From Anadara kagoshimensis (taxonomy: Eukaryota; Mollusca; Bivalvia; Arcoida; Arcidae), in contig CM037870.1 of assembly GCA_021292105.1 (NCBI GenBank), forward strand, positions 15,905,234 to 15,969,233: a stretch of 64,000 bases of DNA, written 5' to 3'. Positions 15,201 to 40,425 of this stretch are shown here, piece by piece; within the stretch, counting starts at the first letter, position 1, and the number at the start of each line of letters is the position of its first letter. Under the pieces are notes generated by a model. The model was not told the DNA's origin, did not search any database, and was given only the letters and a program-made list of their open reading frames with translations. A program made the translations under genes and the position numbers.

Positions 15201-18200
15201 GTCATATGCCGTTTTTTAATGTATTGAATTGTCATATACCATTTTTTTGAATTTAATCATAAAATACATTCAAAAAATGGTATTTATTGTCATATACATG
15301 TACCATTTTTTGAATGTATTTTATGATTAAATTAAAAAAATGGTATATGACAGAATGATTAAATTTTAAAAAATGGTATACCAGTATGACAGTTTCACAA
15401 AAAGTAAGTGCATTAATTGTTTTTTAAAGTCATCTATAACAAATATATCCGATACAAAAATACAGCATAATGTTGTATAAATTTTTATGTAATAGTTGCA
15501 AAAATGTTTAAAACCTTCAAAAGTTGTTCTTTGATTTTTAGTCATTATGTGCAGACCTATTTGAAAAATGTTCATGAAAAATACCTGTCAAATGAAAAGA
15601 AGAATGGTGGATATTGTTTACAAGCTGGCTAAGTTTGGAAGTAATTTCCACCAGCCAACTAACAATTAAATTCGGGTTTAAGTTGAAATGTGGTTTAACC
15701 ATACACTGTCGTGTATGCAAGTGTATGCAACTATGCAAGTTTATATTTTCCATAGGGTTTATATTACAATTATCATGTCAAAAAAAGAATCGAAGTTTTT
15801 ACATAGATGAAAGTGATATTTTAACTTGATGATCAAAATGTATGCAACAAAGCATATTAAGGAAAGTATAAAATATATTTTCAAGATAATAACATTAATT
15901 TAACTGAAAAATACGCCGCTATACCAGAATAATGCTTTCAACCTATAGTTTTGTGAAGTTTTTGAGTCTGAAATGATATGGCCAGTTTTAAATGTACAAT
16001 AATTTATTGATGGCAGTGTATAGGTTCCTGGTTGATATGCTTAGACTAAAAAGGGTATACCATCTTGCGAGTGGTGTATTGTAATTTTCAGAGTTAATGT
16101 TCCAAAACGTGCAGCAAGTCAGAAGACCAAGTTACTCGGTATATATCCGGGAGCGGAAGTTGTACGAGGTTCAGACTGGGAATATGGATCCCAAGATGGT
16201 AAATGTTACTTAGATTAAAAACTGGATTAATCATGTAAACGATGTGTTTGGTATTTTGGTCCGGTCATGTTTTTAATCGAACACAAAGATACCATCACAA
16301 TCTAAAAAGCAAAGCATTTTAACCTTTATAAACTGGCAAATTAACTTGATATAATAATGCACACCGCATAGAGAACATTTTTCAAAGAAATAAAAATAAA
16401 CTACATGTACTATTCACAAATGCAGTAACTGAAAATGTACTTTTAATACATGTGCAGTCAAATCTGCTTTAATCGCCACCTTATATATAAGTGTGCCTGG
16501 TTTAAAGGACATTAATATATATTTATTTGTGTTATTTTAGCCTGTATATAAGGACCGCTAATCACAGGCACTTGTTTTTATCATTAACGGGAGATCGATA
16601 CAATGCAAGTACTAATGTTATCGATCTCCCGTTATTGATAGAACAAGTGCCTGTGCCACTGATCCATAAAGCTACACGTACTGGTTCCTGCAGGTGTTCT
16701 TTAAAGACAGGTTTAGTCGTATTTGTTATTGTTTTTATCCAATTTGATCTTTATTCATGTTATTGGAACTTGTATTTAAGGACCACCTACCCATAAACGT
16801 AACTTTTACCAGTTCTCTCGAGTGACATTCATAGACAATTTTGACCATATATTAATGCTGCTTTATATTTTACAGGAGGGGCTGGAAGTAAGGGTGTTGT
16901 TGTGGACTTGCGCGGGTTTGGAGCAGATATGGGTGGTCGCAATGCTGTAAAAGTCCGCTGGAACAATGACGAAGCTAACGTGTACAAAGTGGGATGTAAG
17001 GGGAAAGTTGATGTTAAATGTGTTGTTCCTGCTCCTGGTGGATTTTACTACAAAGAACACCTGCCTCTAGCTGGTAAGAGTCATATAACATACAACTTCA
17101 TGTCCTAATCACAATCCGAAAAGCAAATTAATAACATGCAAGACTGACCAAATACGTTAATAACGTGAACTAGGGAAGTAAAGTCTCTCAACATCAGCAA
17201 TTTTTAGAGGAAAAATGACAGAACACATTGATAACAAACACAATGTCATATGTTCACAATGAAAAAAATCGATAACATAGGTATTTTAACTAGTGTATAC
17301 TTAGAATATCACGCTGTTCTAAGAGCTATTGGTAAGCAGCGGTTCTGAGATTTGACTGGTGAACCTACACCTGGAAAGTTAGACCTGGTACTCAGGAAGG
17401 ATAAGCACCTCCTTTAAGGCTTATTACACCCACCACGTGTGAAGTCAAAATTGGGGTTAAAAAGCTTCGAGATAAAACAAACCATATAACAAACCAATAC
17501 TAGTAGTCATATGTAATATAATTAAATTAAACATGTCATAAAACCATGTTATCTATCAAAAACAAACATACTAATTCATATCCGGATCACAATCCAGAAG
17601 CAAAGCAAAAACTTTGGAACTGACAAGTTACGTTACACACGAAGCTTTTACTAGGGAAGTGAGACCGGGTGCTGCTTCGGAAGGGTTAGCACCTCCTGTT
17701 TAGCTATCTACACCCGCCACTTGTGGAATCAAAATTATGTGAAAGGAACATGGAACTATGGGACGTCAAATATATCCAGGGAAATCCTGGACAGAGATAT
17801 CAAATTATCAAAAATACTGTGACGGCCATACAACTTTTTGAGGGCTTTGATAAGCCTAGGTTTTCAATATCCCTGGGACAAACTATTATATGGAAGCAAT
17901 TTGCATCGAAGTTCCTGCAGTAGGAACAAACTCTACCATAATTTAAAAACAAATACATCATAAACATGGCAAATTACAATCTTTAATATTTAGAAGACTT
18001 ATTTTGTGACGTATTTCTCCTTTAGGTGCAAAAGAGGGAGCAGGAAAAGGAAGCCCGGAAATGAACCAAAGTATACTTAAAATTGGGGATAAAGTGTGCG
18101 TGGACATACCGGAAAACGCACTAAAGGAGGTGCAAAGAGGACATGGAGGCTGGAGTCTTAGAATGGCTGAGGTATATTTGACTTTACATCAAAAAGTTAA

Positions 18201-21200
18201 AACAGATCTATGGAAATAATCACTAATAAGAACATTTAAGAACTTAGAATAAAGAAATACATGTGCAAAATCATTTACATGGTGGCTACTGATAGATAAA
18301 GCATTTCTCTACAGATGACCCTTGGACATAATTATAGTGCCTCAAAATTGACCTGATCGTTTGACCTTTAATGTAGATTGGGCTAATAAACTGTGTGATG
18401 AAGGCATGTTTCATTACCATATACACACAGTACCCAGTATTACTATCATCTATCCTTATATATTAACTTTATATAACTCTTAAATTTCACAGTGGATATG
18501 TCCGTTTGAATATTAAAATTAAAGGTCAAACTTGACGCTTTATACAAATGTTGCTGAAAATGGATAACAAAAGTGGTAACCAATGCAACGAAGCAATGAC
18601 CAGTGGTGTAGTTCAGTACAGAATGTTACAAATGGTACATCACAAGTTGACCCTAAACACGTCTATTTGAAAAATCTAAATGTAGGCTTATTTTACTCAA
18701 CAATGCAACATAAATAAAATTTATTGTATTGTGGATATTATTTGATTTTTATATACTAGGGCATTAATTAGAATGTTTGTAAATATCAAAAACAAACATA
18801 CTAATCCATGTTCGAATCACAATCTAGGGGCAAAATTTTTAAAACTGACAAGTCAGGTTACGTGAAATTCCACCAGGGAAGTAAGGGCGGATGCTCCGGA
18901 AGGGTAAGCAACTGTCGTTTAGCTAGCTACACCCGTCACGTGTGTTATCAAAATAAAGTGAAAGGAACATGAAACTATGGGATGTCAAATATATCCAGGG
19001 CAATCTTGGACAGAGACATAGAAATTCGATGGTACCATAACTGGTACCTGAACAATCATTTATGTTTATTTACCATTAATAAAGATAGGAGAGATGACTT
19101 CTCATTATACATTTGATAATTGTTCAAAATGTAATCATCATCAGAGGTGTTATAAATGACATGACCGTCAACTTATTGTTGATAAGTTTGATGTCTCTGT
19201 GTCCAGGATTGTCCTGGATATATTTGACGTCCCATAGTTCCATGCTCCGTTCTTACACATGACGCGCGTAGCTTTCTAAACAGGGGGTGCTTACCCTTCC
19301 GGAACATCCGGCCTCACTTCCCTTATGCAAGTTAAACGTCTGAAACCTAATTTGTCAGTTTTACTTTGCTTCTGAAATGTGATTCGAACATGGATTAATA
19401 TGTCCAAATCACAATCCACTGCACCCACTGCTTAGCTAGCTAGACCTGATTGAAATCAAATTTGAGAATGAAAGTAAGATTGAAATATGGAACGTTAAAT
19501 ATTAGAGTAATTTCGGATACAGAGACAACATTAATAATTTCATAAAATATGTACATGTATATTAGTTTATTATTCACTGTTGTATAATCAAATGATTTAG
19601 GAAGTTTTAAATTTAAAAATTGACTTTTGTAGTGCGTTGGTAAGGTTGGTATTGTTAAGGCATTCCATGGAGACGATACAGTAGAGGTGCGATATGGTTC
19701 AGATAACTGGCAGTTTTATGCTGGAGCAGTTAGAAAGGTAAGCCTATAAGAGTGCCCGATATTTAATAGATGTATAATTTATAAAGTATACCACGCACAT
19801 ACTAATCCGTGTCCGAATCGCAATAAAGAAGCAAAGTAAAAACTTTGAAAAAAGACAAGTTAGGTAAAACACGTGAACTTCCAACAGGGAAGTGACACTA
19901 GCTATTCTGGAATGGTTAGCGCCTCCTGTTAAACTAACTACACCACAAATAGTAGTCCAAGTCACAATCCCAAAAGCAAAGTAAAAGCTTTTTAATGGTA
20001 GTTAAATACGTGAACTGTGATCAGGAAAGTAAGACTTGTTACTCCCGAAAGAAACACACATCCTGTTTAGCTAGCTACATCCATCATAAGTGAAAACAAA
20101 CTTGAAAATGAAAGGAATTTGGAACAACGAGACAATGTACATTAGGAAAAGGGCGTAGGCAACTGATGAATATCATAATGTCAGTAATGACTATCCACAA
20201 TCTCGATATATGTTAGTTTATGTTTGGTATGTTTATAAACAGGTTCATAGTATCAAAGTCGGCGATACAGTGAAAGTTCTCGAAAATGAAGATAAAGCGA
20301 AACTACTACAAAAAGACCATGGTGGCTGGGAAGATGACATGAAAAAGGTAATTTCCATGACATTATTAAATCAATATTTTACTCCTTATTTATCTCTCTG
20401 GAAAAAGTGAACTTAGACTACTCATTCGGGCACTACTTTGTACCACAAAATACGCATTTTTTTTATTTTGTTATTAGGTCTTTTACAAGATTTTCTCTTT
20501 AGGACGCTGTTTTTAAGTCGAAGTTGCTGTATAGATATTTTAACTAAGATTTTTTATCCTGAACCTTTTACTTGGGGACAGAATTTCCGACTTGTCATGG
20601 ATTCCGTTGAAGAGTACGCCAGACGTTGGGCTAAATTAGAAGATGTTGAGCTTGATACCTTATCCGACTGGATAAAGGTTGTTAGATCTTTCGTTAAAAC
20701 TAGGATTGCCAAACTTAAAGGGTTTATGAGTACTAAACCGTCTTCAGTACTCAAGGATCCAGAAATCAAGGCAATTCTTACAGACATACACAACAAATAT
20801 GTTGTTGTCCCAGCTGATAAGGCTTCCAACAACATTTTTCTCGTTTGTAAGAGATTCTACCTTGAATGTCTTATTAAGGAGCTTGGTTTAGATAGTATAT
20901 CAAATAACCCTGCATATTCTAGAACTAATTTGACCAAAGATGAAGTTCTTTCCAACCATAGGGGAGTTCTCGAGTCTTTTGGTATCAATCCTAAAGAGGA
21001 AGATCTTGATCTTCCTTACTTGTATTGGATTCCTAAACTTCATAAAAATCCATACAAGGAAAGATATATAGCAGGCTCATCTAAATGTACTACTAAATCA
21101 TTATCGGTAACTCTAACACAAATTTTGACAATCGTCAAAGATGGTCTTCAGTCTTATTCAGAAAAAGTATATTCTACATCTGGAATCAACCAAATGTGGA

Positions 21201-24200
21201 TTCTAAAAAATTCTAAAGAATTACTTGAACATCTTGCTTCTAATACTTTATCTCATGTAAAAAGTATAAAAACATTTGATTTTTCTACACTATACACCAC
21301 AATCCCTCATTCTAAATTGAAAGAACGTCTTAAAGAAATTATTCACTTGTCTTTCTTCTACAAAAACGGTAAGCCAAGATACAAATATCTGGTGCTGAAC
21401 AGGGATTCTGGTTATTTTGTCAAGCATCATACGGATTCCAAACAAAAATATACTGAAGATACCATCAACAAAATGTTGGAGTTTTTGATAGATAACATAT
21501 TTGTTGTGTTTGGTAATATAGTATTTCAGCAAACAATCGGTATACCAATGGGTACAAACTGTGCACCATTGCTTGCTGATTTGTTTCTTTATTCTTACGA
21601 AGCAGAATTTATGCAGAACCTTGTTAAATCTGGAGAGAAAACTGTCGCCAAATCATTTAACTCAACATACAGATACATAGATGACGTTCTGTCTCTTAAC
21701 AATCCTAAATTTGGAGACTATGTAAATGTCATCTATCCTAGTGAGCTTGAAATAAAAGACACGACTGATTCCCCAAGTTCTGCTTCATATTTAGACTTAT
21801 ACCTGAATTATGACGCACAAGAAAGGCTACATTTGAAACTTTATGACAAACGTGATGATTTCAATTTTTCTATTGTCAACTTTCCTTTTTTATGCAGCAA
21901 TATACCTGCTTCTCCTGCTTATGGTGTGTTTGTTTCCCAATTAATACGCTATGGCAGAGCTTGTTCCCACTACGGGGACTTTGTACAACGAAGTAGGCTG
22001 CTTGCAAATAAATTGTTGACTCAGGGATATTGCAAGCCTAGGCTTATCAAGGCCCTCAAAAAGTTTTATGGCCGTCATCACAGTATTGTTGATAAGTTTG
22101 ATGTCTCTGTGTCCAGGATTGCCTTGGATATATTTGACGTCTTATAGTTCCATGTTCCTTTCACACAATTTTGATTACACACGTGACGGGTGTAGCTAGC
22201 TAAACAGGAGGTGCTTACCCTTCCGGAGCACCCGGCCTCACTTCCCTGGTGGAGGTTCACGTGTCTAACCTAACTTGTCAGTTCCAAAGGTTTTACTTTG
22301 CTTCTGGATTGTGATTCGGAAATGGATAAGTATGTTTGTTTTTGATTATCTAACATTGTAGGAAATCTAACGAATATCTAACAAATGCCATAATCTGGAA
22401 CAAAATAGCAGTCATAACCAAGGGGATGTAACTCTTATTCCAAAACAATTTCGATGTACTCAAGATATTAGTGTAAAATCTTTATATAATCATTTGAAAG
22501 ATAATTTAAAACCTATTTTATTTATTTGGTAAAATAACACGTCACACAATAGCCTCTGAAAACAGTTTTACCTGCTTCGCTGTGCATTGAATACCATATT
22601 TTGAATACTAATAAAGTTCTGAAAAATGTTAGATCTTTAAAATTTAAAAAAAAATAAAAAAAAATATTGCAAATAGTAACCTCCACTTACATTTTAATTT
22701 AAACTAAATAAATTAATCAAGCCATTTTAATCGTTTCTGTGAAAATATTTCAAATAAAATTTAATGTGTGAACGGTAAAATAAATAGCTTACCATAGAAT
22801 GTTCATTCAGTTTGCCAATATGACATCTTCAATACAGTTTTGTTACTTTCTATAACAAATGACAAACGCCTTAATCTTAACAATATATATATATATATAT
22901 TGGAATGTTTTGTTCAGTCTTTAGGGAAAATAGGAAAAGTAGTAAAGTTGGATTCCGATGGTGATGTTGTTGTAGCGTTCGGACACCAAGCCTGGGTATA
23001 TAACCCTGCTTGTCTTATCCCAGCACAAGGAATGAAAATAGATGAAATACAAGAGAAACAAGACTTCAGTCGCTCTACAGGTTTGTCTTTTCTTCTTGTT
23101 TATTAAGATGATATATGTATATATCTAAGCTGGAATATTTATATATTTATTACCACTTTGGTAAAATACTTACAATCTGATTGGTTAATATCTCATTTAT
23201 ACCATCCCATATATTTAATTTTCCAAGGCAATACGGTCGCCTGAACGGGTAATACGGATACCACGTGATCGGGTAATACGGAGCTTCAAACCTGTCGGGT
23301 TATGGCCGCCCCCATGGTCCGCTTCAAGTATTGCAGTATATTTTTAACCTGTTGGTTTTCAAAAAAGTATTAAAAGTAACAAACGATTTTTAATTTTATA
23401 AATTACAGAATATTTTAAAATTAAAATTTTGTGTCTGACGATAAGAAAATAAGATTCAAAATTCGAGAGTTAAAAGTTCGTATCTGCGGCTAAAGGGGAA
23501 CAACTCGCACAGAAACGTCGATTGCAAAAAGTGATGACGATTTAGGGAAATTATATTCTAGCATTCACATAACTCCAAATACGCCCACGGGTACAATTTG
23601 AATAACGTTTATATTTTCTGTCGTCGGGGTGGTGAAAACATTCCTGAAATGTCGAAATCTATTTTTTCTGTGGCTACAGATCCCTCACCAAGGACCAAAT
23701 TTATAAAGAAAACTGTAGATGAGTTAACAAAAAATCGTCGCGAAAATGAAAAGGAAAGATACACAGGAAATAATGCCCGTTGACAACACGCCAATGTGTC
23801 CTGTAGCTTCCTACGAAAAGTACATATCCGTTTACTCTGCTGGAGAGAAAGGAACAACGCTAATATTTCAAAGGTTTGAATGACACGGTTAAAAATCAAT
23901 TAATCATTTACTTACATGAGGCGAGTCGATACTAACAATCCTAATTTCGATCTAGTCCATACATTATAACTCCTTTAATACACCAAAACGTATTTTGGAT
24001 GGGTGTTTACAATGGTAAAAATTTTGACAAAATGGCGGTGTCTTTTGTGTGACGTAATGATGACGGAAGAACTTATTCTTTACGTAGGCGCGCAAGGGGT
24101 ACAATGAAGGGTAGCTCCAGTTTGAAGAGTTATAATTTTCAATGAGATAAATGACATTTTTAAAACTTACTTATCTCAGAAATACTTATTAAATTTAATA

Positions 24201-26832
24201 TTTCCGTATTTTCAATTAATTAAAAAATTTGATAGAAAAGATTGTTGAGTTGTTCCAATTTAATTATTTTATACTAATATTTTAAACCTTATTACAATAT
24301 TCCAGTAACTGCAGCATGAGCTTAAATTTTCAAATGTTGATCGAGATCAGACCAAAGTGGTAATAAATTCGTTATTCGAGATTTTCCCGGGGTATACGGG
24401 ATGGTATGACCGTCTTTGGTTTAGTATTTCCTTCGGCTGCGCCTCACGAAATACGAAACCCAAGACGGTCATACCATCCCGTATACCCCGGGAAAATCTC
24501 GAATAACTAATAGTATACAGGTTTATATAGCAATTAAAACAAACATACCAGTCCCTGTCCAACGCTCAATTCCAAAGCAAAGTATAAACGTTGGAACTGA
24601 AAAAAGTAAAACAGGTAAAATCCGGTGCACCTGGGAAGTGAGGCTGATTGCACCAGTAGGGTGAGCACCTCCTGCTTAGCTAGCTACACCAGCCTTATGT
24701 GGCTTCACACCCAAATAAAATTTGGAATAAAAGGAACATGGAACGATAGGACGTCAAGTACAACTAAGGTAATATTTGATACAGAGACATCGCACTTATT
24801 ATCAATATTGTCATGACGGTGATAAAATTTTGAAGGCATAAATAAGCCTAGGCTTCCAATATCAATATGTTTGTATCAACATGTATGCAAGATTCTAAGA
24901 ACACATGTTAATATAAAAATCAAGCAAATAACTACAGATCACCTTAAAACTTAATATATACATTCTTTTATAAAGATTAAACTACGAATAATGCACTGAA
25001 ATTGAAAACAACTAATCTGAGGAAATCATATCATAAAAGTACAAAAAATGTATAAAAAAAACCGAAAATACTAACCCATGTCCAAATCACAACCACAAAG
25101 CAAAGTTAAAACTTTAAAAATGGCAAATTAATTTTGACGTGAAGCCCAGTGCTCCGGAAGGTTACCTTCTGATTAGCTAGCAGCACTAAACACGGGTAAA
25201 ATCGAACCCGAGAAGGAATGGAACAAGGAACAATGGGATTTAAAATATTTATGATAAAAAGTTTAAGTTCGAGTGAAATACTTATCTATTAAAAGATAAC
25301 CTGATAAGAGGGAAATAAAAACCCTGAGGAAAACATGTATTTAAAGTAGAAAAATAGGAAATCTGATCGAATAATCAAAAGCAGAATTAAACAGAACATC
25401 TTTATTCATGTACAAGGCACGTAACTGACATTTTATATTTGGTCAAAGCAACCTTACCAGAAAAAATTAATCCACATAAGTCATAATATTAAGGTAGATC
25501 CATACCTTACAAATCGCTTGAAAACATATATTGAATTTTTGATATGCTGTTCATGGGCATAAACCATTCATTTTTGACCGTGTAAATTATACAGAATTGT
25601 ACCCTCAACAGTGTAGATTTTTCTTATTTCTATTAAAATATCATTTAGTTACGTTCTTTAAAATCGTACTCAAAATTGATATTGTGAATTACAATCTTTT
25701 GTGAATGCAGAAAATAATTTTAAATGATACGCGTAATGTGTTCAGCGTTACCGCCATAATTCTGTAGGCGACAAAGACCGCATATTCGTGACGTCATAGA
25801 TAAAAAAGACGTCAAATCGGACATTTCGACCGTACTCACAAAACGTCGACGTCACCATGGTATGGATCTATCTTAAGAAAGGATCAAAGGTAAACCAGTG
25901 ATCATTAACCATTTACACATCACAATAATTAAAAAACCATCATTTTTTTCAGGTGATGCAGGCGAAGAAGTAAACGCTGGATTAGCTCGACTTTTTGCAC
26001 ATCTTATGGTGCTAGATGCACTTGGTCGCAGGCAGATTGGCGCTGAACAGATTGTGGCTGCAGCCGCTAAGGGCGATTTAGCTGCTGTAAAAGCAATTGT
26101 TCAACAGAATCCACAACTAGTAAGTGATATATCCCGTTTTATTATATGATTATATAGAATACATTTTATCGACGTTTTACGTCTTAGTCAAAAGTTTTGC
26201 ATTTATATCGATGCGGTCAGTTTCGTAATAGTGAAAGAAAACGGACTGTTCAGAAAATCATCGACCCGCGGCAACCGAACAAAACAACTGTCTCACATTA
26301 GGATCTGTCCCTAGTAGGATTCAAACCTAAGCGTTAAGAGATTTGCCTGTTGTGACCAGTAGTCAATAACATATTATACCAGTTTTAATTTTACAGCACT
26401 AGACGGCCGTTTCGGAATACATTTCCTCATCAGTAGTGCTTGGACCAAAATTATGAAACCAAAATTATTTTGAAGCTGTTGAAAAGCTACCCAAATGACC
26501 AAAATATATTTACCAAATCAAGCTAAGGAAATACTTTGCATGAGGGAGTATACCTTAGTTTTTGAGAAATTTCAAATTTTAACTTGCAGGAAATTTAGAC
26601 AATTATAGTATTTTTCTGACAATAATACGAAATTATTGCCTACTGAGTTGGTGATATCCTCGGGGCACCAGCCACCAGCAGAGATAACCTAGGCCTCTAT
26701 AGACTTTGAAGTCGTAGATTGTGATTGTGATTTTTTGCAAACAACCTTTAAGCGATACCGACATCTGAATCGAAAATAAACATGTTGATGACGGATGAAT
26801 ATACCTTTTCATTGTGATATGGGATATTAAAG

Positions 26833-26888
<56 letters not shown>

Positions 26889-29636
26889 ATTTTACAAAGT
26901 ACATTAACGTTTACAATGTCAAATTTTGTTTCATTTATTAATAGGTAAATGTCAAATACAAAGAATTAACACCCCTTATTATAGCAAGTCACCAGGGACA
27001 TAAGGAAATTGTGCAGTTTCTTTTGGATACAAATGCTAATATTGATGCAACGGATGGTAAAGGAAACACAGCCTTGATAGCTGCATTATCTGGGTAAAGA
27101 CACAATATCTTGACTTAAAAGTTGTATTATCAAAAACAAACATACTAATCCCTGTCCGAATCACAACCCAGAAGCAAAGTAAATCATTGGAACTGCCAAA
27201 ACAGGTTAGACACTGTAACTTCCACCAGGGAAGTGAGGCCGGATACGCCTCCTGTTTAGCTAGCTACACCCGCCACGTGTATAATCAAAATTGTGTGAAC
27301 CGAACATGGAACTATTACACGTCAAATCACATATTGAAATGGTATATTTTACGACTTTTGGTGATTTCATTGATGAAAGGTAAAATACCTTCAGTTTATT
27401 CCTTGACGCGTATTGGTCACATTCAATAATTATCCGAATGACTGGATCGGTTCTGGTGTCATCAATAACAATGCAATCGTGCTGAAATTTCCTTTGACGG
27501 ATGAAGTGACATTTATTTTTATTTATTTTTTTATTGATATTTGAGAAATAATGCCTAAGGTTGGCAAAATGACATTAACTATTTCATTTCTTACAGAAAA
27601 GTTTATTCTAATATTCGTTTTATATAGAAATAACATCAATTAACGTTGTGCACAATGGGTAGGCGTTTCGCAAAATACAGCAGGTTGTATCTAAATTGCT
27701 CAAAAAATAATTCTTTGATCTGAAAGAAAAGTTTACTTATATAAAAATCTCATCTTCGTAGTTGTCTTTTCAATTGTTAAGAATTTACCTTAGGATTAAT
27801 AAAATAAATTTGTTTAGGTAAATGCACCCAACAGATTCTAGATGGAACTATTACGAACTATTATATATTACAAAAAACTAAAATACAAATTATAAGATAT
27901 AAAATTCTTAAGAAAATATTAATACTGGCATTATTTGTCAAAGCATGGGGTTTTTCTAAATTCGAACTAATTAAAAAAATAGAGGTGGTTAGAAATATCG
28001 GACCTGCACATACATCAGACGTGTGCGTAGAACAAATATGATAAAACAACAGATTATTTTATAGAGTCGATTTTTTCTAAACAATTATTACAGGAAGGAA
28101 GAAGAGATAGCTCGTCTTCTGATAGAGAAAGGAGCAGATGTGAATGTTGCAAACAAAGATGGTAGAACTGCTGCCCATGCTGCTGCATTCGCATCACTTT
28201 GTACAGCACTAAAGCAGATACTACAGAAAGGCTGTAATCCCTCAGTAAAAGTAATACTATAACTTTTTCATAACAACTCTAGTCAAATTTGGATACACTT
28301 ACATGTGTAACAACGAATCTTTGATAGGTTCTATTTTTGTGTGATGTTACATTGGTACACTTACATGTAACAATGTACATTTGTAAGGTCTTATTTTTAT
28401 GTGGTGTTATATGGGTACATTAACTGTTTTATTGCCGAACGAGGTCCTGAACTAATGAAATAAATACTTCGGAAACCATTTTCTTCAAGTACTTCAGACT
28501 TAGATTTATACCTTAATTATGATACCATCGAAACACTACATTCAAAGCTGTATGACAAACATGATGATTTTTTTATTTTATTTTTCTATACAGCAATATA
28601 GCTGCTTTTCCTGCTTACTAGTAGTGTGTATTTGTTTCACAATTATGATGTTATAGAGGAGATTGATCCCACTACGGGAACTTTATACAACGAAGAAAGC
28701 AAACACATGAATTGTTAACGCAAGGATATAACAGACCTAGCCTTATCAAGGTCCTCAAAAAGTTGCATGGACGTCATCACAATATTATTGTTAAATATGC
28801 TGTCTCATTGTCCAAAATTACCAAAGTTTCTTTCATTCCAAATTTTGATTACATACGTGCGGTTGTGACGAGTTAAACAAGAGTTGCTTCCCTGATGGAA
28901 TTCTGCGTGTTAAAGACAACCAAGAACAATAATTTATGAAATCTGTATTTAGATAAAAGGCAGAATCGTTAAAATTCTTAGGTTTCGAGACATTATTACT
29001 GTGTGCGAAATTTCTGCAAAATGAACTTCGCTGAATTTAACAGCGATTTTGATTTGATTTTTAGGATGACGATGGTGATACGCCTCTACATGATGCGATA
29101 TTTAGGAAATGTGATAGAGCCGTTGCTTTACTCACTAATCATGCGAAATGTGATATGAAGTGTACAAATAAAAAAGACTTCAATTCCCTCCAGTGGGCCG
29201 CACTGAAAGGACACGATTTGTGAGTATTTTTAAGACAAGGGACATATCCATTTTGAATTTTCCGTTGAATAAACTAATATGAACGATTTTGTCTATATAT
29301 TGGTTTTTCGAATGGTTGTAAGAAAGCTTTTAAACTATTATTGTATAACTTAGTTATATGCCCTATTTAACGAATAAGACAAATATAATATACATATTTG
29401 TATAATATATATTTATAATAATTTCATTTGTTCAAATTGTATATTTTATTATCTATGTCAATCAGAGCTTCTTATTTAATAATTGGTTTATGGTAGTTGT
29501 CCACAAAAAAAACATATATTTGAAGCGTCAGTCAAGAAAAAATATCCATCTTTGTTTTTTAACGTTTTGAGGAAATCAAATTAAAAAATCAAATCTTAAG
29601 CGTTTTTTCTATGAATAATGATAATTATGATCTGTC

Positions 29637-32600: not shown

Positions 32601-34364
32601 ACCTTCCTGATCTGAGGTTAGGATTTATAACAGTCGTCAACTTATTAATGTTACTGCTCTGAACTTTCTTTTCATTCAAAATTATCTGCTTCTTCAATTC
32701 TTCAAAAAACTAATTTCAGTCTTGTTATAAGATATTATCTTATCTTAGTATTGGCTTCGGTGAATTTTGTAAAATACACTTAAGTCCTTCTATTTTTCCA
32801 ACTTCTTGAAAAATATTAGTATTTTCCACAATTTTGGCCCAAGCACTACTAATGAGGAATTTGATTCTAGTACTGCAAAATTAAATCAGTTTTAATAATA
32901 ATTAGCTACTCCTAAATTTGTTTCAGGAGACCAAGACCAGCAAGCGCTAGAACAGAAACATTGGCTGATCTGTTTGCTGAACTCCCTCTTCCATGTTCGT
33001 TATGCATGGAAAAGATGGCCGATGCTCGACTCTTGCCATGCTCACACAAGATTGTATGCAAGGTGTGCAGTTTCCGCCTTAAACGTTGTCCAATGTGCGA
33101 AACACCAGTCACTGGGAGAACTGATTTGAGTAAGTACACATGTTTCATGTACACTATGACTTCTTTATGAAATGCTGCTTAAACATTGTGCTATTTAATT
33201 TGACAGAATATTGTATCGTAGTTTACCATACCATTTTATTTAGTACCCTGGCCTCATCTCTGTAACTACGTGTAAACGTATAACACCATTTAATCCAAAA
33301 ACCAGTATTAAGTTAAAAAAACGATGTCTAAAATAAATGGGTTTAGCGGAATTTGCCCCAAAAGTTTACCAAAACCATATCATTTTCGGTTTGACGTGCA
33401 TTTATTCGGTCAAAATGAAGTTTTCAATATGCCACAAAGTGTCTCTTACCATAATTGAGAAGAAAAAACAAGGGTCTTATCTGGATATTTAGAGTTTACA
33501 TCACATGTTTCAAAGGATAATTTATCATCAAAGTGTATTTCTGTATCAATATGTCATGCAAGTTGCAATACCAACACAGCAAGTGAACTTTTTTATTTTT
33601 GTATCAGTTTGTCATGCATGTCGCAATACCAACACTGCAACTAGGTACTTGTGACAAATCTTACCAAAGTACTTGGTTAAAACACTGGCTATGATTTACT
33701 TAATTTCTCCTGTTTTACTGCTTATGTCTGAAAGTAATCAGACATAAATATGCTGATCTTTGCTTTTGGGATTGTCATTTTAACATGGACTGTTACTTTT
33801 GTGTTTGATTATAATGTTCATTCAATGTTTGAAAACAAACATACTAATCCATGCCCGAATAACAATCCACAAGCAAAGTAAAAACTGAGAGTACAAGGAA
33901 CATTGGACTATCAGGTCTGGGATCAGCCCGAAACGGGGGATCTCCCGATCGGGGGACATTCAAAGGGAGGTAATTCTCCCGGATGTTAAACGCGAGTACA
34001 CAGGAGAGTTCCACTGATCGCGAGTAATACTACCTTATGTAAACTTCCGGTAGATTATGCATATAAACTAGTGGTTGTCAATAAAGCTAACTGTTGTTTT
34101 TTATCCGAATTATCTGGCTTTATTTTACAGATTTTAACTTTTACCCCCCCCCCATAATTAAACTTAAAAACCAATTCTTGTGGTTGCAAATGAACTGTTA
34201 CAAACGTTTTTGTGCCTTTTTTAAAATTTATATAAAATCGGTTATATATGCCAATTGATATATTTTTTTATGAAATACACTAATGTGAATAGAGTAACAC
34301 AATCAGAAGCCCTCGGCCAACTAAAAATTAAAACAATAAGTTCCTATTGTGTAACAATTACATA

Positions 34365-39013: not shown

Positions 39014-39520
39014 CATTTGAATAGTGTATGTAACTTATAGTATGATATGTATTCTTAATTATTTGAACCGACTGTATTGTAAAGTGTATAGTAAAGTGTT
39101 GGTGTTGATAAAATCAAAAATTGTTTTGTATAATTTCATAATTTTGGTCCAAGCACTACTGATGAGGAATTGTATTCCAAAACGACCGTCTGGTGCTGTA
39201 AAATTAAAACTGGTATAATATGTAATTAAAGGTTTTGTATTGGATGTTTTGGTGATAGTTTAATCAAACCAATTTGTACTTTTACTTGTAAATAAAATCC
39301 CAATAAACAAATGGTTATTTGGTACTTTTTATTTCAAACCTTTATTCAAATAGTGCATGGTACTTATATTATAATGTATATTAATATCTATATGAATTAA
39401 TTGTGGTGTAAGTGTTGATAAAAACGACAATTATTTTATAAATTTTTTAAGATTTTGTCTTAGATGTCTTGGTGACGATTTAATCAAAAAAATTGTTATT
39501 GTACATATTACTAAAAATTA
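39014..39520 (+). repeat. Two-unit tandem array of the hammerhead repeat, about 329-bp period
   Basis: ATAGTGTATG...GTGTTGATAAAATC in unit 1 (from 39021) recurs as ATAGTGCATG...GTGTTGATAAAAAC in unit 2 (from 39350). GATGTTTTGGTGATAGTTTAATC at 39244 recurs as GATGTCTTGGTGACGATTTAATC near 39460. Unit 1 holds the ribozyme at 39152-39197; unit 2 lacks that segment (about 95 bp). Confidence 0.7.
39152..39197 (+). ncRNA. Type I hammerhead ribozyme, one core change
   Basis: AGCACTA, CUGAUGA, stem II GGAAU-UGU-AUUCC (perfect 5 bp), then AAAA where GAAA is required, CGACC, GUC, and UGGUGCU pairing back to stem I with one G-U pair. Structure is kept, but the G-to-A core change should strongly reduce cleavage. 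Confidence 0.7.
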
Positions 39521-39930: not shown

Positions 39931-40129
39931 CATAAAATAAGTAATTTTTGAGGTGCTAATATTCTCATTGTTTTTGTGGCCAACCAGTCCCTGAAATTTT
40001 CTTGTTAACGAAATAGTATATATTACAAACTTGCCTTAAATAGAAACCGAAAACTAATAACCTACTTCCCCATGAAATAGTTTTTTTTAAACACTAAAAT
40101 TGGACAGCGCTGTTGATTCATTTATATTG

Positions 40130-40425
40130 CGAACCTAGGCTTACCAAGGTCTTCAAAAATTTTATGACAGTCATTACAATATTGTTGATAGGTATGATGC
40201 CTATGTATCCAAAATCATTTTGGATATATTTGACGTCCTATAGTTCATCCTCAGTTTTAATTACACATGTGGCTAAATTAGCTAGCTAAACAGGAGGTAC
40301 ATGCATTTGCTCTTCCGGAACACCCGGCCTCACTTCCCTGGTGGAAGTTCAAGTGTTCAAATTTATTTGTCATTTTTCAAACGTTGCTTTTGGAATTGTG
40401 ATTTAGACATGAACCAGTATATATA
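40130..40425 (+). mobile_element. 5'-truncated Penelope-like element copy
   Basis: Forward copy: CCTAGGCTTACCAAGGTC, ATATTGTTGATAGGTATGAT, CTTCCGGAACACCCGGCCTC and CCTGGTGGAAGTTCAAGTG. Confidence 0.78.

Follow-up and report, generated by a model that had tools for sequence, protein, structure and literature searches.

The window, by which we mean the whole stretch of 64,000 nucleotides of Anadara kagoshimensis DNA that was analysed, holds on its plus strand a mind bomb gene in which a domain search found SH3_15, ankyrin and RING exons. One of its introns (26120..26944, plus strand, 825 nt) was read from the sequence, with its GT at 26120-26121 and its AG at 26943-26944, and the ankyrin exon on its 3' side (26945-27097, plus strand) was placed by a domain match. 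This intron harbors a 322-nt copy of a repeat on the minus strand (26365..26686) and, within the copy, a type I hammerhead motif (26395..26440, minus strand). A (TA)n stretch lies at 26834-26890 of the same intron. The reading made from the sequence alone (hereafter the sequence-only reading) had spoken of a MIB2 intron, of which the intron and the mind bomb gene stand, the gene being either MIB2 or MIB1; the SH3_15 exon matches solved MIB1 chains. The same reading rightly placed the hammerhead antisense to its host gene, so that the gene's own transcript carries the complement only.

Read on the minus strand, positions 26440 to 26395 form a complete type I hammerhead core that agrees to the base with the sequence-only reading. 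It runs through the first strand of stem I (AGCACTA, 26440-26434), the core stretch CTGATGA (26433-26427), stem II with its loop (GGAA-ATGTA-TTCC, 26426-26414), the core stretch GAAA (26413-26410), CGGCCG (26409-26404), TC (26403-26402), and the second strand of stem I (TAGTGCT, 26401-26395). The motif thus has the CUGANGA ... GAAA ... NUH core and the open-ended stem I of its type, and its GUC triplet (26404-26402) puts the predicted cut between 26402 and 26401. Stem I is the perfect 7-bp helix that had been described, and stem II has 4 bp and a 5-nt loop. Stem III had been given about 3 bp and is here corrected to 2 bp (A-U and C-G) with a GGCC loop; its 8-mer, ACGGCCGU, is self-complementary. 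The hammerhead may be of the "minimal" form attributed to it or of the canonical form with a loop 1-loop 2 contact: stem I could extend beyond an internal loop (UAAUUUU/AAAAUUA), with an outer helix whose cells are 90.1% paired across copies and for or against which covariation does not speak.

The core pattern CTGATGA-N5-30-CGAAAC-N2-12-GTC matches the 64-kb window once and none of 100 shuffles of it. A looser pattern gives two matches for 0.46 expected, a number reached by 7 of 100 shuffles; we take the second match (60637), where no stem arrangement is visible by eye, to be due to chance. The sequence-only reading had proposed a covariance-model search as a check, with a score below threshold counting against the motif. 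When a 66-nt slice was searched with Rfam RF00163 (Hammerhead_1), the motif aligned over the full length of the model (1-45 of 45, E 9.5e-6) at 28.2 bits, short of the curated gathering score of 34. The two share the core and the size of the 8-nt stem III; the letters of stem I differ. The window hammerhead was absent from the RF00163 results on the 64-kb and 801-nt stretches, and a whole-genome search with the family returned no matches but did not detect any of its controls either. Seven intact tandem copies in two other loci (L010 and L020) score only 17.9 bits in a 10-kb search, a single one of them cut to 66 nt (from L010) scores 28.1 bits, and the hammerhead copies of a third locus (L005) are not listed at all in such a 10-kb search. 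Intact tandem copies score equally low, and the low score thus stems from how the model and its filters work and not from decay of this copy.

The motif is part of an abundant repeat. We searched the window's own assembly (1,115,223,567 bases in 36 contigs) and found 7,116 matches to the exact core pattern, against 8 for the reversed pattern. A similarity search of the same assembly, in which 40 of 2,835 first-look candidates were scored, gave 54 matches. The segment common to these matches corresponds to window positions 26365 to 26686, and tandem neighbors lie about 339 nt apart, with most spacings between 333 and 345 nt. The repeat hence consists of units of about 339 nt with one type I hammerhead each, found alone or head to tail, which bears out the earlier suggestion of a small retrozyme-like repeat. 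The unit falls within the range of short tandem repeats of about 150-450 bp that occur in many copies as dimers to multimers, and the G+C content is 0.34 in two monomers, below the 50% expected of retrozymes. We found no tRNA genes, as a tRNA-derived SINE would have, in one locus of more than five units (L005), no occurrence of the exact 25-mer of the hammerhead in collections of viral or prokaryote contigs, and no match in the genome to a stem II pattern of the Schistosoma type. In an array at C3:19505258-19508639, which has at least 11 units, the spacings are 338-339 nt except for two of 322 and 325 nt.

Within the window, the intronic copy is solitary and 97.2% identical to a genomic monomer in L005. 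It lacks the first 16 nt of the 339-nt monomer, being 5'-truncated at 26686, and it ends at 26365, which is the fixed 3' end of the family described below. A second, strongly 5'-truncated copy (39134..39227, plus strand) is 97.9% identical over 94 nt and has a broken core, with GAAA changed to AAAA and G12 lost. A third copy, which is old (32747..32867, plus strand; 73% identity), also has a broken core and has no stem III region.

The ends of the copies were analyzed by aligning them to one real monomer, on which the predicted cut falls after phase 302 and the 3' end is phase 339. Three samples were pooled, picked by similarity, by the hammerhead pattern, and by a 24-mer outside the hammerhead; they comprise the best matches of the similarity search and, for the rest, copies from contig C1, rather than a random draw. 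Eight loci were dropped for overlap with others (L031-L034 and L037-L039 with L029, L030, L035, and L036; L078 with L077). After removal of duplicates and of copies that ran into the end of a fetched locus, 75 distinct young copies (at least 90% identity and at least 60 nt) were kept. A single 3' end, within about 6 nt (phase 335 to phase 6 of the next unit), is shared by 70 of them. It lies 37 nt beyond the predicted self-cleavage point; in the window the segment from the cut to this end, which contains the putative start of reverse transcription, is 26365..26401 on the minus strand (from the cut after phase 302 to phase 339). The 5' ends of these 70 copies fall at all phases, most commonly at phases 1-42 (17/70), and only two are within 3 nt of the cut, for 1.4 expected. 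The lengths of 35 of the 70 exceed one monomer (339 nt) and those of 8 exceed 678 nt. The 24-mer sample, which favors young copies as it requires an exact 24-mer, gives the same picture when taken alone (27 loci), with 26 of 27 copies at the fixed 3' end. In the first sample the fixed site holds 70 of 91 3' ends when old copies are included and 49 of 53 when they are not. One fixed 3' end with scattered 5' ends is the pattern expected in the DNA if reverse transcription always began at the same site and often stopped early.

Counts of 24-mers across the genome, with up to 3 mismatches, rise along the unit from 4,989 (phases 44-67) to 9,296 (201-224) and 21,813 (316-339), against 0, 1, and 18 for the respective reversed controls. 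The 3'-end 24-mer is thus 4.4 times commoner than the 5' one. Part of this gradient may reflect uneven decay, given that in old copies the 5' half diverges more than the 3' end. Among 100 listed exact matches to the 3' end, we chose by eye 17, none beside a listed hammerhead match. Unit sequence extends at least 83 nt upstream in 14 of them and only 25-32 nt in the other three, and short copies of this kind, down to 25-32 nt, carry different flanks. We did not see an autonomous element sharing the 3' end of the repeat among these 17 loci. Target-site duplications, which in retrozymes exceed 4 bp when present, were clear in only 1 of 53 copies (L044), as a perfect 28-mer, with a mismatched-flank control of 0.4% at the lowest threshold; the same locus is again the only case among the 27 copies of the 24-mer sample. 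A search for the empty site of three tiny insertions returned repeats about 78-80% alike for two of them and nothing for the third, with no exact empty allele.

The fixed end constrains the RNA template. On a linear unit cut by the hammerhead, copying begun at the fixed site would yield no more than about 37 nt, whereas copying begun at the 3' end of the RNA would yield DNA terminating at the cut. Neither is seen in the sample, which implies a template continuous across the cut, a circle or an uncut multimer; this holds for copies of at least 60 nt, a length above that of run-off products (about 37 nt) on a cut linear RNA. The arrays bear on the choice between the two. Monomers differ by 1.5% on average within arrays (57 pairs), against 4.1% between loci (2,352 pairs), and 37 variants are common to all the monomers of an array, against 1.1 expected by label shuffling (largest value 8). 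A further 121 array variants occur in only some of the monomers and show that later mutation or conversion also acts, and in arrays such as L016 the divergence differs little, 4.3% within and 5.0% outside. The uniformity within arrays favors a circular template, though not cleanly.

We then considered the fold and the conservation of the hammerhead. The nearest-neighbor minimum of the 46-mer monomer is a non-catalytic fold (-11.7 kcal/mol, against -7.2 for the hammerhead), whereas two copies are predicted to co-fold exactly into a double hammerhead (-33.3 kcal/mol, against twice -11.7, tertiary contacts being left out of the calculation). Of the 73 rows that match the core pattern, 49 have a palindromic 8-mer in stem III. 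RNAalifold found no consensus pairs in 86 copies. Pairing of the named structure holds in 92.7% of the cells, against 92.3% in shuffles (4 of 500 as high), and sliding the partner by 1-3 columns reduces the paired cells to 30-47%. Changes on both sides of a pair are at chance level (249 and 76 of 500 shuffles). Lacking covariation, the hammerhead fold rests on the identity of the core. Two monomers folded as circles were no stabler than their shuffles, of which 29 and 45 in 100, respectively, reached the same stability.

The core is intact in 73 of the 86 rows of the alignment, in 34 of 37 hammerheads of the loci picked by similarity, and in 19 of 35 in the 24-mer sample, which is blind to the hammerhead. 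Four of the 16 broken cores of the latter read CCAAAA for CCGAAA (L080, L085, and two in L093); the missing base is G12, which belongs to a CpG, and CpG decay would produce this change. In young copies picked by similarity, the differences number 3 in 746 positions for the core, 15 in 1497 for the stems, 34 in 2012 for the 3' tail, 76 in 1896 upstream, and 332 in 12474 for the rest. We do not claim selection on the core, since the conservation of the hammerhead block is equalled by 39 of 500 blocks of 47 nt drawn at random.

The age of the window copy can be gauged from a second mind bomb locus (L002), on the same contig and 1.36 Mb away, which is about 90% identical over window positions 24712-27346. 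It holds the same insertion with identical ends, so that the window copy must have been in place before the two loci separated. We regard this locus as probably a duplication (a true paralog) and a misplaced haplotype as less likely; the insertion is common to both either way. The element differs by 6 substitutions in 322 positions between the two loci, and the neighboring stretches by 22 in 321 and 19 in 294, a flank level of 6-9%. A similarly low value is found in another stretch, 25312-25811 (13 substitutions in 500), and we read the low divergence of the element as the probable result of patchy conversion. The sequence-only reading had seen a recently active repeat. This fits the family, which looks recently active, with young arrays such as L010 and L005 whose monomers differ on average by 0.16 and 0.24%. 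It does not fit the window copy, which is lone, truncated, and shares its ends with the second locus: what the window preserves is a fossil of the family, and antisense solo copies like it are ordinary by-products.

Several features of the repeat have parallels in known systems. The metazoan non-LTR retrozymes (Cervera & de la Pena 2020, PMC7229834) are described as tandem units of about 170-400 nt, every unit carrying a type I hammerhead; their G+C is low, their copies number in the thousands, and Penelope-like elements occur beside them. All of this applies here. Those of the mussel Mytilus galloprovincialis are 350-390 bp repeats with about 5,000 hammerheads that accumulate as circular RNA, and the authors suggest that the circles serve as templates and that enzymes of Penelope-like elements could be the helpers. 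According to the same paper, amphibian (newt, axolotl) hammerhead repeats have units of about 330-350 bp with a very short helix III, like the present one; the tetraloop of one axolotl family is palindromic, and amphibian dimers are more active than monomers, a dimer being here a prediction. By description, the two-pair helix III resembles that of a second axolotl family and of invertebrate motifs. Unlike what is reported there, dispersed truncated insertions dominate our sample, and the two circular folds are no better than shuffles, in contrast with highly self-paired published retrozyme circles. The Anadara family was set beside these families by description, and its 3' end was measured here. 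On this basis, the repeat matches the known animal non-LTR retrozymes as a new family of them. What is new is the anatomy of its ends, a fixed 3' end with scattered 5' ends; in a search of open-licence literature we came across no animal retrozyme described as having a fixed start site beyond the cut.

Penelope-like elements with hammerheads offer the other parallel. As described by Frangieh et al. 2024 (PMC11167929), they too have DNA copies that terminate at one internal position beyond the cut, and they also form tandem or partial tandem copies. The anole protein initiates internally in vitro, with insertion unaffected by mutation of the hammerhead; in that element the cut falls 26 nt inside the ORF, the main start falls 111-118 nt inside it, and a second start is close by. 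Unlike in the anole element, the site is here 37 nt past the cut and the unit is too short for a reverse-transcriptase gene. The repeat is accordingly not itself a Penelope-like element, about 339 nt being too short for an ORF with reverse transcriptase and GIY-YIG, the layout given, in this order, for such elements in the same source. The genome does encode them: the GIY-YIG domain scores above the Pfam cut-off at 50 places, one of which (L122) has a 728-aa ORF with RVT_1 and GIY-YIG both above cut-off, and another (L123) a 521-aa frame with GIY-YIG above and RVT_1 below it. Comparison of these two loci with the repeat gave no match better than E 0.17, and a loose hammerhead pattern matched once in the former, without evident helices, and not in the latter. 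The link to Penelope-like retroelements in the sequence-only reading is therefore plausible for a helper only, and we infer the partnership from the presence of such elements in the genome.

Taken together, these data lead us to conclude, with a probability of about 0.92, that the window copy is an old, truncated member of a family of non-LTR retrozymes that is non-autonomous, and for which the following mechanism may be proposed. Tandem copies would be transcribed, and the hammerheads, most likely paired through their self-complementary ACGGCCGU, would cut the RNA to unit length, after which a host ligase would close the unit to a circle. A reverse transcriptase from another element, most likely a Penelope-like one, would start at the fixed internal site and travel around the circle until it dissociates, which would leave insertions that are 5'-truncated or multimeric. 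The copy in the window would be such an insertion, antisense in a mind bomb intron and shared by two diverged loci; its single hammerhead would allow no more than one cut in a minus-strand transcript and cannot release a unit. More tentatively, and at slightly less than even odds, the copies would be the genome-scale footprint of reverse transcription initiated internally, 37 nt past the cut, round a circle made by the ribozyme. The 37-nt segment would then act as both recognition and start site for the helper, and the hammerhead would serve to produce the circle in which this site stays intact. By analogy, such chemistry fits the internal initiation described in vitro for the Penelope-like protein (PMC11167929). 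For the way in which animal retrozymes re-enter DNA, the family, with its scattered 5' ends, lengths beyond one unit, and some 22,000 instances of a single 3'-end sequence (counting those inside arrays), offers a mapped candidate start site, and this makes the question of the helper directly testable.

The most serious alternative, which we consider unlikely on balance, is that the template is an uncut multimeric transcript and the hammerhead dispensable for insertion, as for the anole element in vitro. A 3' end past the cut requires only an RNA continuous across it, mutation of the hammerhead left insertion unaffected in the anole system (PMC11167929), and the variants confined to some monomers of an array are easily accommodated; yet monomers resemble each other more closely within an array than from locus to locus, as if one circle had been copied repeatedly, and mussel repeats of like type accumulate as circles (PMC7229834). 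The tandem arrays, one with at least 11 units, and the near absence of target-site duplications would also suit a satellite DNA spread by unequal crossing-over, with the hammerhead as a passenger and single copies arising from the break-up of arrays. Such a history predicts random ends on both sides of dispersed copies, however, and the sampled 3' ends are not random: the sharing of one 3' end by 70 of the 75 young copies, whose 5' ends scatter, together with the copies of 25-32 nt with different flanks, is a signature of reverse transcription with 5' truncation rather than of array break-up, which makes the satellite very improbable.

It is more improbable still that the intronic hammerhead was kept for a role in the host, for instance acting on an antisense transcript. 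Its core is intact and the element has diverged less between the two mind bomb loci than its adjacent flanks (6/322 against 41/615), but 25312-25811 is about as similar, which suggests patchy conversion, and with 19 of 35 hammerheads intact in the hammerhead-blind sample such intactness is unremarkable. As for a chance look-alike of a hammerhead, to which the sub-threshold RF00163 score and the lack of RNAalifold pairs could be attributed, its probability is close to nil: the complete alignment and the number of genomic copies remove this reading despite the score, with no match in 100 shuffles and 7,116 genomic matches against 8 reversed.

A few other arrangements were observed. One locus (L023) has a perfect 214-nt inverted repeat (1460-1673 / 3178-2965), each arm of which is made of a retrozyme 3' part and the same flank, and another (L026) has two direct retrozyme copies with the same 3' flank (855-994 and 1485-1624) amid degenerate tandem repeats. 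The window itself encodes on the plus strand a 576-aa reverse-transcriptase ORF (20417-22147; RVT_1 at 24.7 bits, below cut-off), which a single comparison shows to be distantly related to that of L122 (24%, E 3e-9). Fragments of its 3' part lie at 28482-28819, 17762-17908, and 40104-40240 and in many of the fetched loci. We rejected this ORF as a direct partner of the repeat, as no link was found and, by a rough estimate, its fragments are about as frequent near the copies as in the window. Finally, inverted pairs of GIY-YIG frames, separated by 2-5 kb, lie at C15:54986423/54989902, C15:59520667/59523173, C3:1658447/1660515, and C6:15379015/15384018.
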